Assembly: GCF_016904885.1 (NCBI RefSeq)
Contig: NZ_JADWYI010000001.1
Span: forward strand, 1,798,001-1,862,000
Length of the DNA stretch: 64,000 nt
From: Archangium primigenium
Lineage (GTDB): Bacteria; Myxococcota; Myxococcia; Myxococcales; Myxococcaceae
Reading direction: 5' to 3'
This document shows positions 21,275-28,656 of the stretch, in pieces. Each line of letters begins with the position of its first letter. Within the stretch, counting starts at the first letter, position 1. The position numbers and the translations under genes were made by a program. Under the pieces are notes generated by a model. The model was not told the origin of the DNA, searched no databases, and saw only the letters and a program-made list of their open reading frames with translations.

Positions 21275-24200
21275 CTATTCGCAGGCGTTGGCCACGCACG
21301 CCAGACCCGGGGCGCAGTCGTCCCCGCTCTTGCAGCCCGTGCCCGCCTGGCAGTCGAAGCCGCTGCCCCCCGCCATGTTCACCACGGAGAAGTTGCGGTT
21401 GGTGCGCGCGTCGTTCGAGGGCGTCTTGATGATGGACTGATTGCCGAAGGCCCCGGGCAACTGGTGCGTGAGGGTGACGACGTTGAGCGACGCGCTCGCG
21501 GTGAGCCGCAGGGTGGTGGGACCCGCGGCGCCCTGGACGGCCTCGCGGATGGCCTGGGCGACATCGGTCGAATAGAAGGTGATCTCGATGGGGACCGGCA
21601 CCCGGGCGGGGTTGTGCCGGTTGTTGTTGTCGAACTCGAACGTGACCGGGGGGTTGAGGCCGTCGTTGAGGGTGAAGGTGTCGCCGTCCTTGAAGTCGAT
21701 GCCGTAGGCGCCCAGTACGATGGTGATGCGGCCGGTGGCCTTGGCGTTCTGCACGGCCTTGCAGGTGGCGTTGCACGAGCCGCACGCCAGGCTGTTGCCG
21801 TCGTCGCACACCTCCGCGTCGGTGACGAGGCCGTCGCCGCAGTGGGGGCCGGTGAGCGGCAGCGTCGCCTCGCACGTGGAGTTGCACCGGGTGCAGGTGG
21901 GCACGCCGTAGCCGCACGAGGTCTCGTTGGTGTTGTTGCCGTCGTCGCACACCTCGCCGTGGCTCGTGACGTTGTCGCCACAGAAGGGGCCCGTGAGGTT
22001 GAGCTCGGCCGAGCAGCTGGAGTTGCACGTCTTGCAGCTGGCGGTGCCGTAGGGGCAGGTGGCCTCGTTGGTGGTGTTGCCGTCGTCGCACACCTCGGTG
22101 CCGTTGATCTCGCCATCGCCGCACACGGGGCCCTCCAGGTTCAGGAGCGCGGAGCAGTCCGAGTTGCAGGTGGTGCAGGTGGCCTTGCCGTAGGCGCACT
22201 CGAGCTCGTTGGTGTTGTTGCCGTCGTCGCACACCTCGTTGTCCGTGGTGCGACCATCACCGCAGTAGGGACCCGCGAGGCTGATGACCTGGAGGCAGTT
22301 GGCGCTGCAGCCCAGGCAGCTGGGGGTGCCGTAGGGGCAGGACGTCTCGGCGGTGGTGTTGCCGTCGTCACACGCCTCGGGGCCGTTGATGATGCTGTCG
22401 CCGCAGACGGGGCCGTGCAGGTTGAGCACCGTGGCGCAGCTCGCGTCGCAGAACACGCAGTTGGCCTGCCCGTAGGCGCAGGCCGTCTCGGTGGTGGTGT
22501 TGCCGTCGTCGCACGCCTCGTTGTCCGTGGTGCGAGTGTCGCCGCAGAAGGGGCCCGCCAGGTTGAGCCGCTGGGTGCAGTTGGCGTTGCAGGTGGTGCA
22601 GGTGGGCGTGCCGTAGGCGCAGGCGGTCTCGTTGGTGGTGTTGCCGTCGTCGCACACCTCGCTGTCGGTCGTCTTGCTGTCGCCGCAGTAGTTGCCCCGG
22701 AGGCTCAGCTCCTTCTTGCAGTCCGCCGAGCACAGGGTGCAGGTGGCGCTGCCATACTCGCAGGTGGTCTCCTCGATGGAGTTGCCGTCGTCGCACACCT
22801 CGCTGTCGGTGACGAAGGTGTCGCCGCAGTAGTTGCCCCGGAGGTTGAGCGGCGCCGAGCACGAGGCGTCACACAGGCGGCAGGTGCGCGTGCCGTACGC
22901 GCACTGGGTCTCGGTGACGGTGTTGCCGTCGTCACAGGCCTCGCCGTCGGTCGTCTTGCTGTCGCCGCAGAAATGGCCCGTCAGGTTCAGCTCGGCCGTG
23001 CAGTTGGCGTTGCAGGTGGTGCAGGCGGCGGTGCCATAGGGGCACGCGGACTCGTTGATGGAGTTGCCGTCGTCACAGGCCTCCGGACGCGTGCCGTTGA
23101 CGTTCACCTTGCCATCGCCACAGCGGTTGGCCCGGCACGTGGGCAGGCAGTCGTCGTCCTCGGCGCCGTTGCCGTCGTCGCACTCCTCCTCGGCCAGGTA
23201 GTTGTGGAAGCCGTCACCGCAGTAGGACACCTTGCAGGTCGTGGTGCACAGGCGCGAGAGGCCCCGGGCATCGCACTCCTCGCCCGCGGGGCCGTTGACG
23301 AAGCCGTCTCCGCACACCGGCGCGGTGCAGTCCGCGTCGCAGGTGGCGCTCGTGCCGCCCGTGTCGCACTGCTCGCCGGCGGGCACGTTGACGTACCGGT
23401 CTCCGCACCGGGCGCTCGTGCAGTCGCGGTTGCAGTCGGCGGTGTCCGCGCCGGTGCCGGGGTCGCACTGCTCGCCGGCCGTGGTGTTGACGATCCGGTC
23501 ACCGCAGGTGCGCCAGGTGCAGTTGATGTTGCAGTTGATGGTCTCGCCCTGGCCGTCGCAGTCCTCCACGCGCGGCTCCTGCCGGTCCACCTTGCCATCG
23601 CCGCAGACGGCGAGCCGGCAGTTGGACAGGCAGTTGTCGTTGTCGAGCTTGTTGCCGTCGTCGCACTCCTCGTCGGGGTCGCGCACGCCGTTGCCACAAC
23701 CCTCGCCGGACTTGCAGTCCGCGCTGCAGCCGTCGCCGTCGATGGTGTTGCCGTCGTCGCAGACCTCCTTGGGCGAGTCCACGATGCTGTTGCCGCACGT
23801 CTCGTTGGACCGGCAGTTGGCGCTGCAGCCGTCGCCGTCGGTGGTGTTGCCGTCGTCGCACACCTCGCCGCGGCCGGGGTTCACCACGCCGTCGCCGCAG
23901 ATCTCCACCGAGCGGCAGTCCGCGCTGCAGCCATCGCCGTCGAGCGTGTTGCCGTCATCGCACCGCTCGCCGCGGGCGGTGTCCACGTACTTGTTGCCGC
24001 ACACCTCGGTGGACAGGCAGTCGGCGCTGCAGCCATCGCCGTTCTCGTTGTTGGCGTCGTCGCACTTCTCGCCGATGGCGCGGTCGATGATGCCGTTGCC
24101 GCACGCCTCGTTGGACAGACAGTCCGCGCTGCACTTGTCCCCGTTGTTCGTGTTGCCGTCGTCGCACTTCTCGCCCTTGACGAGGTCGACGATGCCGTTG

Positions 24201-24466
24201 CCGCACACTTCCTGGGACCGGCACTCGTGGCTGCACCCGTCACCATCGACGATGTTGCCGTCGTCACAGGCCTCGCCCAGTTGGATGACGCCATCGCCAC
24301 AGTCATCCTTGATGCACACGTCCTGACGCGCGGCGCACTGCTGGCCCGAGGGACAGACCAGGCCGGAGGGACAGACGACGCTCTCGGGCTCGAAGCACGC
24401 GCCGAGCAAGAGCAGCAGCGGCAGTAGCAGCCACGAGGCCCACGGCGTGGAGGGAATTCGGTTCAC
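21275..24466 (-). CDS. Giant Cys-rich DUF4215-repeat surface lipoprotein
   Basis: The 1063-residue protein starts with GTG (AGAGGTG upstream) and a lipoprotein signal ending LLLLGAC. It then consists almost wholly of CGDG..GE.CDDGN..DGDGC..C modules of the DUF4215 / myxobacterial Cys-rich repeat type. Two module classes occur: 12 short ones of about 33 residues, then nine long ones of 47-51 residues with an inserted CxYGxxxCxxCxxxC and LNLxGP linker, and a tenth truncated one. A non-Cys domain (about residues 905-1040, [17 protein letters not shown] onward) follows, and a final Cys-rich tail. The Asp-rich loops may bind calcium and the Cys pairs should be disulfides. A cell-surface or adhesive role is inferred. 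It is the last gene after the kinase and PEGA genes. Confidence 0.85.
21752..23124 (-). repeat. Tandem array of nine long DUF4215 modules plus one partial
   Basis: Within the giant gene a unit of about 141 bases is repeated nine times between about 23124 and 21843, followed by a truncated copy to about 21752. Each encodes CGD...CDDGN...C.YG...C..C...C...LNLxGP. Conservation at DNA level is visible in the recurring GTTGCCGTCGTCGCA segments on the plus strand. Confidence 0.8.
23125..24302 (-). repeat. Tandem array of twelve short DUF4215 modules
   Basis: About twelve units averaging 98 bases encode the short module [31 protein letters not shown]. Units nearest the N-terminus are most alike; the last four (NCNINC, ADCNRDC, ATCDADC, CTTTC) have lost the DGDGC loop. 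Confidence 0.75.
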
Positions 24467-28600: not shown

Positions 28601-28656
28601 GGAGTGGCGGGCCAACTCAGGGCACCAGCTTCATTCTTCTTCATGTCCCGCGGCAT
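25633..28656 (-). CDS. Ser/Thr kinase with nSTAND ATPase, membrane helix and coiled coil
   Basis: The 1007-residue protein has a disordered Pro/Ser/Thr N-terminus (1-85) and a Hanks kinase domain (about 88-370) with GSGGMGTVF glycine loop, catalytic Lys in VAIKFL, HRDLKPEN and DFGIAKL. It then begins an nSTAND NTPase module with SPYAGLSSFQEADANRFFGR and a Walker A GPSGTGKSSF near 424-433. A membrane helix lies near 837-860, and a Lys/Glu/Ala/Gln coiled coil (about 865-1000) closes it. A receptor-type signalling protein that may oligomerise on ATP binding is inferred. First gene of a three-gene operon with the PEGA/TPR and DUF4215 proteins. A second Met (28644) is an alternative start: the AGGGG at the first ATG is too close to it. 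Confidence 0.9.
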   Translation of the reverse strand: MPRDMKKNEAGALSWPATPAGALDERTVAADLESLFSPPGSTTPPPPTVDTPSQRSHRSSGTWDTPSRPNTYSDTSPGLGGQKLRPGTRLQHYELIRELGSGGMGTVFLARDVRLGRRVAIKFLHTQDTDLTQRFILEARATARCSHENIVIIYEVGEYEDSPFMVLEFLQGQPLTKVLGNHRLPPARAVELMVPVVKALACAHEQGIVHRDLKPENIVVTDTGGIKVLDFGIAKLLQQGTEAPEGAVAPGAQPQLHAPAAAGADTGNLTRSGAIMGTMAYMSPEQWGIGVPIDHRTDIWAVGIMLFRMLSGKHPLDPLRGPQLMVTGMLDEPMPRLQQLAPDVPPDLAAVVDRCLLKKKDERFADAAALLRALEPFLPGRFSRELKLDESPYAGLSSFQEADANRFFGRTKEIAALVNRIQDRPLLAVVGPSGTGKSSFVRAGLVPVLKRSGTAWEALVIRPGRSPLASLASCVAPLMSSSTTVEEDIAEQQRLVQRLYAEPGYVGSVLRSRARHQRRRILVFIDQFEELYTLVPDARERQAFTACLSGIADDATSPIRVILSIRSDFLDRVPEDERFMAELSQGLFFLTSPHRDGLRDALVQPAEMAGYQFETPALVDNMLEHLESTQGALPLLQFAATQLWESRDKKNTQLTVSAYKSMGGIAGALASHADSVLAGMTSQERTLVRALCLRLITPDRTRAIVSADELRELTQDTAEMQRLIDHLVQARLLVVQTGGGATGATVEIVHESLIHSWPTLRRWLDEGQEDAAFLEQLRNAARQWQGKNHDSNLLWRGEMVEEAQRFQRRFRGELPRVQQEFLEAVSSQARKGRRLRRALLIGSASFLVLLVIAAAVALVVIRKSQQQAELQAAVAQVAEAQARSAERVARSAETEARQRLAEVQAKELERQKAQKAAEAANAQVALSNAELLAKNDELLAALDRAQQAQTRARSAKKRAEQSAVSAREAKEDAIRAAQDLATLLQREKERVQRLQSQLGSPVIEVLK

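Follow-up and report, generated by a model that had tools for sequence, protein, structure and literature searches.

An operon of three genes, here called KIN, PEGA and LIPO, was analysed in a stretch of 64,000 nucleotides of Archangium primigenium (NCBI RefSeq assembly GCF_016904885.1, contig NZ_JADWYI010000001.1, positions 1,798,001 to 1,862,000; genome of 9.49 Mb in 3 contigs), which is referred to as the window. KIN codes for a Ser/Thr kinase with an nSTAND1 NTPase domain, PEGA for a predicted exported protein with TPR and PEGA-like domains, and LIPO for a lipoprotein with a cysteine-rich stalk and a C-terminal head. The module is conserved in its gene content, the active sites of KIN are intact, the genes are inherited together, and a block formed by the end of PEGA and by LIPO varies strongly between some close relatives. 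Our preferred reading, to which we give an even chance, is that the three genes code for a polymorphic trans-envelope receptor kinase, in which a surface receptor would act via a periplasmic adaptor on a STAND kinase.

The three open reading frames lie in tandem on the minus strand in the order KIN, PEGA, LIPO, and their coordinates confirm the gaps of 8 and 9 bases given in an earlier note on this DNA. An alternative GTG start of PEGA at 25636, upstream of the one used here, would lead to a 4-base overlap with the KIN stop codon; this overlap is likewise open in L031-L035, the five nearest loci, and in some further ones. Scanning for promoters and terminators gave no sigma-70-like sites and 3 terminator-like sites, compared with 3.6 in shuffled sequences, a result compatible with separate promoters as well as with a shared one.

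That the three genes form one system, as the earlier note had suggested, is strongly supported by comparison of sequences. Among 195 genomes of the phylum, PEGA was present in 72, KIN in the same 72 and the conserved LIPO anchor in 69 of these, and none of them was found in the other 123. Orphan copies and gene-order exceptions were retained in these counts. KIN was searched here by its nSTAND1 part, with KIN-type sequences including orphans at 470 bits or above and the next ones at 324 or below. Of 59 genomes of relatives, one and the same set of 27 had PEGA (E below 1e-50) and KIN (E<=1e-150). At 79 of the 91 PEGA genes, KIN precedes and LIPO follows on the same strand, and this recurrence shows that the arrangement is not due to chance. 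The 12 exceptions comprise eight contig ends, judged from the lengths of contigs, from positions on them and from pieces of KIN or PEGA on other contigs, as well as G043, two copies in G052, and G193. In G043 the reading frame is broken and the LIPO anchor stayed under the threshold; LIPO matches follow in L062. The two G052 copies are PEGA-LIPO pairs without KIN on the same contigs as L086 and L112. In G193 (L126), KIN is on one strand and LIPO and PEGA are on the other.

When species genomes were scanned with the PEGA alignment, 55 loci were obtained, which overlap with those above. They lie in Corallococcus, Archangium, Pyxidicoccus, Myxococcus, Hyalangium and many metagenome-assembled genomes, some of them labelled Kofleriaceae. 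Six loci had no room upstream and two had none downstream. KIN adjoined PEGA in 46 of the 49 loci with upstream room (L084 and L097 are cut by a contig end), and the LIPO anchor was found within 700 bases in all 53 with downstream room. KIN was not found next to PEGA in L086 and L112 (UBA1203) and in L108, where a different type of kinase lies further upstream. The scan gave no locus in Myxococcus xanthus; since it required an exact 8-residue pattern, this absence is suggested only.

Co-inheritance was analysed with 90 module records, of which 73 are distinct; 60 modules were used for the trees and 87 for the co-variation described below. The KIN and PEGA trees were largely congruent (Mantel r 0.88, 0 of 2000 permutations), with 30 of the 40 strong KIN splits shared and the paralogous clades recurring in both. 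The correlation between KIN and the LIPO anchor was weaker (0.53). A single genome can contain paralogous modules that differ in their LIPO proteins.

The divergence between close relatives was followed by the rate of synonymous substitutions (dS; Nei-Gojobori, pairwise protein-guided alignments, one genome per species), which saturates for LIPO, a value of 9.9 denoting saturation. From 41 pairs with a KIN dS below 0.25, 14 had both flanks at least 90% identical over at least 800 bases, and in five of these the LIPO dS was above 1. In these five extreme pairs (L134-L137, L060-L061, L140-L143, L136-L139 and L140-L138), the KIN proteins were 96-98% and the LIPO proteins 44-59% identical, with 91-96% identity in the upstream flank and 93-97% in the 2 kb downstream. 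When three Myxococcus-type pairs were aligned residue by residue, PEGA was near-identical through the TPR and beta domains and diverged within or just before its helical hairpin. In L060-L061, PEGA was 66% identical over the whole length. The pattern of L136-L139 was also observed for L089 and L087 (Myxococcus eversor, M. qinghaiensis), with 96% identity for KIN and 51% for LIPO. In 148 pairs with a KIN dS of 0.02-0.45, selected by a word prefilter, the LIPO dS exceeded the KIN dS in 146 and the PEGA dS in 113. Divergence rises along the operon towards LIPO, and the head is the most divergent segment between close relatives.

Within one Myxococcus-type set, the locus L140 was compared segment by segment. 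To L138 and L143, its kinase is 98% and its TPR/PEGA part 94 and 92% identical. The hairpin part is 83% identical to L142, against 73 and 72% to L138 and L143, and LIPO is 68% identical to L142, against 59 and 59%. In these alignments, the outer block of PEGA hairpin part and LIPO looks as if it had been exchanged as one. A diversity-generating retroelement was set aside as the source, without a search aimed at one, because the divergence covers kilobases and synonymous sites.

The variability could also stem only from relaxed constraint, or from a 3' end of the operon that is a hotspot of recombination, and have no role in recognition, which we regard as very unlikely. The increase of divergence along the operon would fit this, linkage would carry the PEGA end along with LIPO, and the ratio of nonsynonymous to synonymous rates (dN/dS) of the head is close to neutral. 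It is 0.87 in the Corallococcus-type set (7 modules, 21 pairs, LIPO 79-90% identical), where KIN has 0.15, the anchor 0.48 and the stalk 0.57. However, the head stays well-folded by prediction and keeps invariant cysteines (41 selected heads), and the 2 kb downstream of the extreme pairs are as conserved as stated above. For a control, other DUF4215 genes were examined in the genome pairs of L140-L143, L136-L139 and L134-L137, with partners sought among 30 fetched loci, which cover part of the matches of the search. Seven of the 11 had a full-length partner and were 85-95% identical (dS 0.08-0.29). Therefore, the extreme divergence of LIPO is not general to DUF4215 proteins; besides LIPO, these genomes may have other variable members.

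Partial rank correlations between segments were calculated over the 87 modules with the kinase-domain distance controlled; the permutations remove shared ancestry only partly. The KIN tail co-varied with the TPR (0.72) and with the PEGA beta domain (0.65; 0 of 1000 permutations). The hairpin tip co-varied with the LIPO anchor (0.28) and the head (0.25; 0 of 1000 permutations each) and was unrelated to the KIN tail (-0.01) and the TPR (-0.03). Weaker values were obtained for KIN tail and anchor (0.11; 67 of 1000), TPR and anchor (0.12; 72 of 1000) and TPR and head (0.12; 40 of 1000). This suggests two interfaces, one between KIN tail and TPR and the other between hairpin tip and LIPO.

Several observations weigh against the receptor reading. 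In nine of the 14 pairs with conserved flanks, the LIPO dS was just 0.10-0.32. Nor can the five extreme pairs count as independent, since L140 occurs twice, four are in one genus and one is in another. In the Corallococcus-type set, the dN/dS of TPR/PEGA (0.44) was higher than that of hairpin and tail (0.23), which speaks against a simple picture of constant inside and variable outside; the PEGA pattern therefore differs between lineages. The DUF4215 control is partial: four of the 11 genes (L179, L181, L187 and L194) lacked a full-length partner in the fetched loci; for L181, the best match (83%) is the partner of another gene. The PEGA C-tail follows the KIN tail (0.30) and the TPR (0.33), not the anchor (0.14) or the head (0.03), and goes with the head (0.74) only among the 54 closest pairs. 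Because adjacent segments of an operon recombine together, linkage alone could explain part of the co-variation. The module is not always complete either. The LIPO anchor profile matched 95 places in the 195 genomes, 87 of them adjoining PEGA; the other eight include one at a contig end, which leaves seven orphans (L128-L132 in G112, G105, G133 and, twice, G052; also in G113 and G118). Five KIN copies have no PEGA (G000, G001, G002, G003 and G052), and a few PEGA-LIPO pairs have no KIN (two in G052, and L108). Frequent occurrence of the lipoprotein without the kinase, which the earlier note had named as speaking against one system, was not observed in the sets examined. A second, lone KIN-like kinase (G000:C1:1359325-1362126, L122) and also L119 are located beside a gene that reads as a dynamin-like GTPase, without PEGA or LIPO, and related lone copies are present in G001 and G003 (L120, L121).

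The kinase described in the earlier note, with an nSTAND NTPase, a membrane helix and a coiled coil, agrees with the Pfam and hydropathy analysis; the coiled coil was read from the sequence. By its profile match over the whole domain and its P-loop residues, KIN is classified as a member of nSTAND1 (PF20703), and by the Pkinase profile and the catalytic residues as a Hanks-type Ser/Thr kinase. In 60 aligned KIN proteins, the HRD Asp and Asn and the DFG Asp were invariant and the VAIK Lys was found in 59, with one gap, as judged from the aligned columns. Likewise, the Walker Lys, Asp and Glu of nSTAND1 were invariant in 60 of 60. After the membrane helix, KIN continues with a tail of 145 residues. 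A strong transmembrane segment with a tail of 131-192 residues was present in all 74 KIN records (duplicates included), and the C-terminus was LK in 51 of the 60 aligned kinases. Insertion of the KIN helix into the membrane was favourable in 86 of 87 modules on a rough scale with simple weights. No PASTA domain was matched by Pfam, and the NCBIfam model for PASTA kinases gave 269 bits (cut-off 450), with the best stretch at residues 92-241. With the PADLOC models of anti-phage systems, the best 25 of 33 matches all peaked in the N-terminal, kinase-containing part of KIN, and none of these fell on PEGA or LIPO.

PEGA starts with a signal peptide, as read from the sequence. The earlier note had assigned TPR and PEGA domains to this protein. 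For the window protein itself, Pfam matches stayed below the cut-off, with only TPR_2 (3.2e-4, 21 bits, cut-off 27) and PEGA (PF08308; E 0.013, 15.8 bits, cut-off 20.8). Support for TPR and PEGA-like domains comes mainly from the family, in which PF08308 was found at E<=1 in 26 of 32 members (best 4.7e-5), and from an AlphaFold2 model with confident TPR and beta domains (predicted local distance difference test, pLDDT, 85.5). Structural comparisons were made with Foldseek and VIA and cover the best 50 matches. Residues 88-178 of the model aligned with the designed TPR 1na3 (VIA-align Z 14.1, 85 residues aligned, root-mean-square deviation (rmsd) 1.4), so that the model is classified as a TPR superhelix. 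The Foldseek matches of the beta domain were transthyretin-like domains. The model also has a long helical hairpin after the beta domain, and on the same rough scale the membrane insertion of both of its helices was unfavourable in 87 of 87 modules. The hairpin may therefore bypass the inner membrane and be lodged in the outer one, with its tip outside near LIPO, which is a guess. The VirB10 protein of type IV secretion possibly spans the outer membrane with an alpha-helical hairpin and has an exposed tip. We draw this comparison as an analogy only, prompted by the unfavourable insertion energies of the PEGA helices.

LIPO was recognised as a repeat lipoprotein already in the earlier note, and a lipobox (LGAC) as well as DUF4215 (6.9e-67) and TIGR02232 (2.2e-90) repeats were found. 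By these matches it is classified as a DUF4215/TIGR02232 repeat protein. Its length varies from 375 to 2302 residues across the module records, some of which are cut at contig ends, and in the window it ends with CVANACE. In M. xanthus, a Lys at +2 of lipoproteins has been linked with the inner membrane and an Ala at +7 with the matrix, according to the cited part of PMC3222651. Among 98 distinct LIPO N-termini, a +2 Lys was found in none and a +7 Ala in three, and for this reason the outer membrane is taken as the default location of LIPO, a putative one. At G052:C1:203998-204168, the LIPO anchor lies inside a 6911-residue open frame in a genome of 2.9 Mb.

The fold of the head resembles outer domains of a phage tail-sheath protein (Z 10.2, 110 residues aligned, rmsd 3.4), of flagellin (FliC; Z 8.4) and of FliD (7.7). 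This was rejected as a clue to the function because best Z values of 7 to 8 are frequently obtained. Pfam gave insignificant matches only for four heads, and PHROGs had no match for PEGA or the LIPO head. In a comparison with SitA-type polymorphic lipoprotein toxins, which have a C-terminal toxin domain and an immunity gene, no toxin family matched LIPO or these four heads significantly. Propeller-like repeats, as read from the sequence, replace the head in the LIPO of G193, and the LIPO proteins of the G043/G048/G052 group have other long tails after the repeats.

With its long cysteine-rich stalk and folded head, LIPO resembles an adhesin. The signal might then run outwards, with the kinase governing the assembly or display of a variable adhesin via PEGA, and cues from the cytoplasm could be combined by the STAND module. 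At the position where KIN has its helix and tail, STAND proteins frequently have a sensor made of repeats that lies in the cytoplasm. The membrane helix and tail of KIN, however, suit an input from the envelope, and its kinase domain, which depends on ATP, cannot work in the periplasm. We judge such inside-out control to be distinctly unlikely.

Table 1. Genes of the operon and their domains (window positions; residues of the encoded protein)
Feature	Position	Strand	Residues or length	Remarks
KIN: Ser/Thr kinase, nSTAND1, transmembrane helix, coiled coil	25633..28656	-	1007 aa	
Protein kinase domain (KIN)	27562..28380	-	93-365	Pfam PF00069, 2.3e-44
nSTAND1 NTPase (KIN)	26284..27483	-	392-791	Pfam PF20703, 3.3e-116; profile positions 1-378 of 379
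Transmembrane helix (KIN)	26074..26130	-	843-861	hydropathy
Predicted periplasmic coiled coil and C-terminal tail motif LGSPVIEVLK (KIN)	25636..26073	-	862-1007	read from sequence
PEGA: exported TPR / PEGA-like / helical-hairpin protein	24476..25624	-	382 aa	GTG start
TPR domain (PEGA)	25097..25378	-	83-176	AlphaFold2
PEGA-like transthyretin-type beta domain (PEGA)	24899..25093	-	178-242	AlphaFold2, family PEGA matches, Foldseek
Long helical hairpin, CGGC at tip (PEGA)	24605..24847	-	260-340	AlphaFold2
LIPO: lipoprotein (conserved anchor, DUF4215 stalk, C-terminal head)	21275..24466	-	1063 aa	GTG start
Lipidated Cys24 and conserved anchor ([29 protein letters not shown] type) (LIPO)	24299..24397	-	24-56	aligned in 34 LIPO
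Cysteine-rich DUF4215 stalk (LIPO)	21758..24298	-		Pfam / TIGR matches
C-terminal head domain (LIPO)	21278..21757	-	160 aa	AlphaFold2 pLDDT 91.8, predicted template modelling score (pTM) 0.86

For the receptor kinase, the following mechanism is proposed. LIPO would be an outer-membrane lipoprotein whose disulphide-rich stalk presents the variable head outside the cell. PEGA would serve as the periplasmic adaptor, with the hairpin tip paired to LIPO and the TPR domain bound to the C-terminal tail of the KIN coiled coil in the periplasm. Engagement of the head would be relayed through adaptor and coiled coil to nSTAND1, a putative NTP-driven oligomerisation switch that would activate the Ser/Thr kinase. 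Since the PEGA end and LIPO are replaced between some close relatives and the kinase is constant, the ligand is likely variable and might be the surface of kin or non-kin cells, prey or phage. A path from the surface protein through the TPR/PEGA protein to the kinase had been suggested in the earlier note. It fits the predicted topology and the co-variation of the segments; the direction of the signal is our inference. The variable block, the conserved anchor and the head of LIPO, and the PEGA hairpin were absent from that note, and they make polymorphic recognition a likelier function than generic sensing.

Two groups of neighbouring genes on the same strand were inspected. Genes for a TolQ/ExbB-like protein and a protein with a TonB C-terminal domain (window 19166-21203) follow directly 3' of LIPO, as they do in the same-genus loci L031-L033; a TolQ match was present only in the five nearest of the fetched loci. 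The gene of an NHL-repeat protein (window 28881-30596) lies upstream of KIN, and matches to it adjoin KIN in L034, L035, L036 and L038. Because the matches appear in only some near loci, neither group was accepted as part of the module.

The TolQ/TonB genes directly downstream, in the window and three same-genus loci, would suit an envelope-integrity sensor. LIPO and PEGA would then monitor the outer membrane on behalf of the kinase, and the diversity of the head would reflect evasion of phage or predator attack, not recognition. The peak of divergence in the outermost domain is consistent with this, but the TolQ match is confined to the near loci as described. In the extreme pairs the hairpin end of PEGA changes as well, something not required for escape at an exposed epitope, and the coexistence of paralogous modules with different LIPO in one genome also speaks against a sensor of integrity. 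We consider this explanation unlikely.

A narrower form of the receptor reading is an allorecognition receptor kinase, in which the polymorphic lipoprotein and the co-inherited adaptor end would report contact with kin or non-kin to the STAND Ser/Thr kinase. We put it forward tentatively and think that it is unlikely to be correct. The closest analogue by design, not by membership, is TraA of the TraA/TraB receptor for outer-membrane exchange in myxobacteria. According to the cited sections of PMC3325183 and PMC6372800, TraA/TraB also has a surface receptor with a stalk of cysteine-rich repeats, a domain that is polymorphic between isolates and a partner gene in the operon. TraA differs in its PA14-like variable domain, TIGR04201 repeats and MYXO-CTERM, none of which was found in LIPO at E<=0.001. 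With no match to PA14 and MYXO-CTERM at this threshold, LIPO is not a TraA. Instead, it is N-terminally lipidated, has TIGR02232/DUF4215 repeats and carries its head at the C-terminus. A kinase partner such as KIN is not mentioned for TraA/TraB in the same sections.

By their enzyme, the closest relatives are the nSTAND1 conflict systems of multicellular bacteria. As the cited part of PMC8195603 describes, the nSTAND1 NTPase is joined there to other domains, and some of these proteins have hypermutated sensors, according to the part cited of PMC10907252. KIN differs in that its C-terminal part is a transmembrane helix with a coiled coil and that its gene stands beside two genes for exported proteins; a comparable three-protein system does not appear in the cited parts of these two papers. 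The PASTA-type kinases (PknB/Stk1) share with KIN the Hanks kinase, the transmembrane helix and an extracytoplasmic C-terminal part. Unlike these, KIN has no PASTA match and an additional nSTAND1 domain, and its signal presumably arrives via separate proteins.

In the open-access literature searched, no description of the three-gene KIN-PEGA-LIPO system was found, and no bacterial receptor kinase turned up whose outer part is variable and whose catalytic part is constant. The lack of an M. xanthus locus in the scan may partly explain why literature on the module is missing. The cited part of a review of 2023 (PMC10433427) describes it as unknown how kin and prey are told apart by the killing machinery, and suggests a polymorphic marker with a signalling mechanism yet to be identified. 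For such a signalling role the module is no more than a candidate. If allorecognition were its function, it would supply the missing link from the identity of the cell surface to the decision to spare kin and kill prey, and the paralogous modules would be parallel channels. If confirmed, the module would link the identity of the cell surface to Ser/Thr phosphorylation across both membranes and would give a handle on how predatory myxobacteria tell kin from prey.

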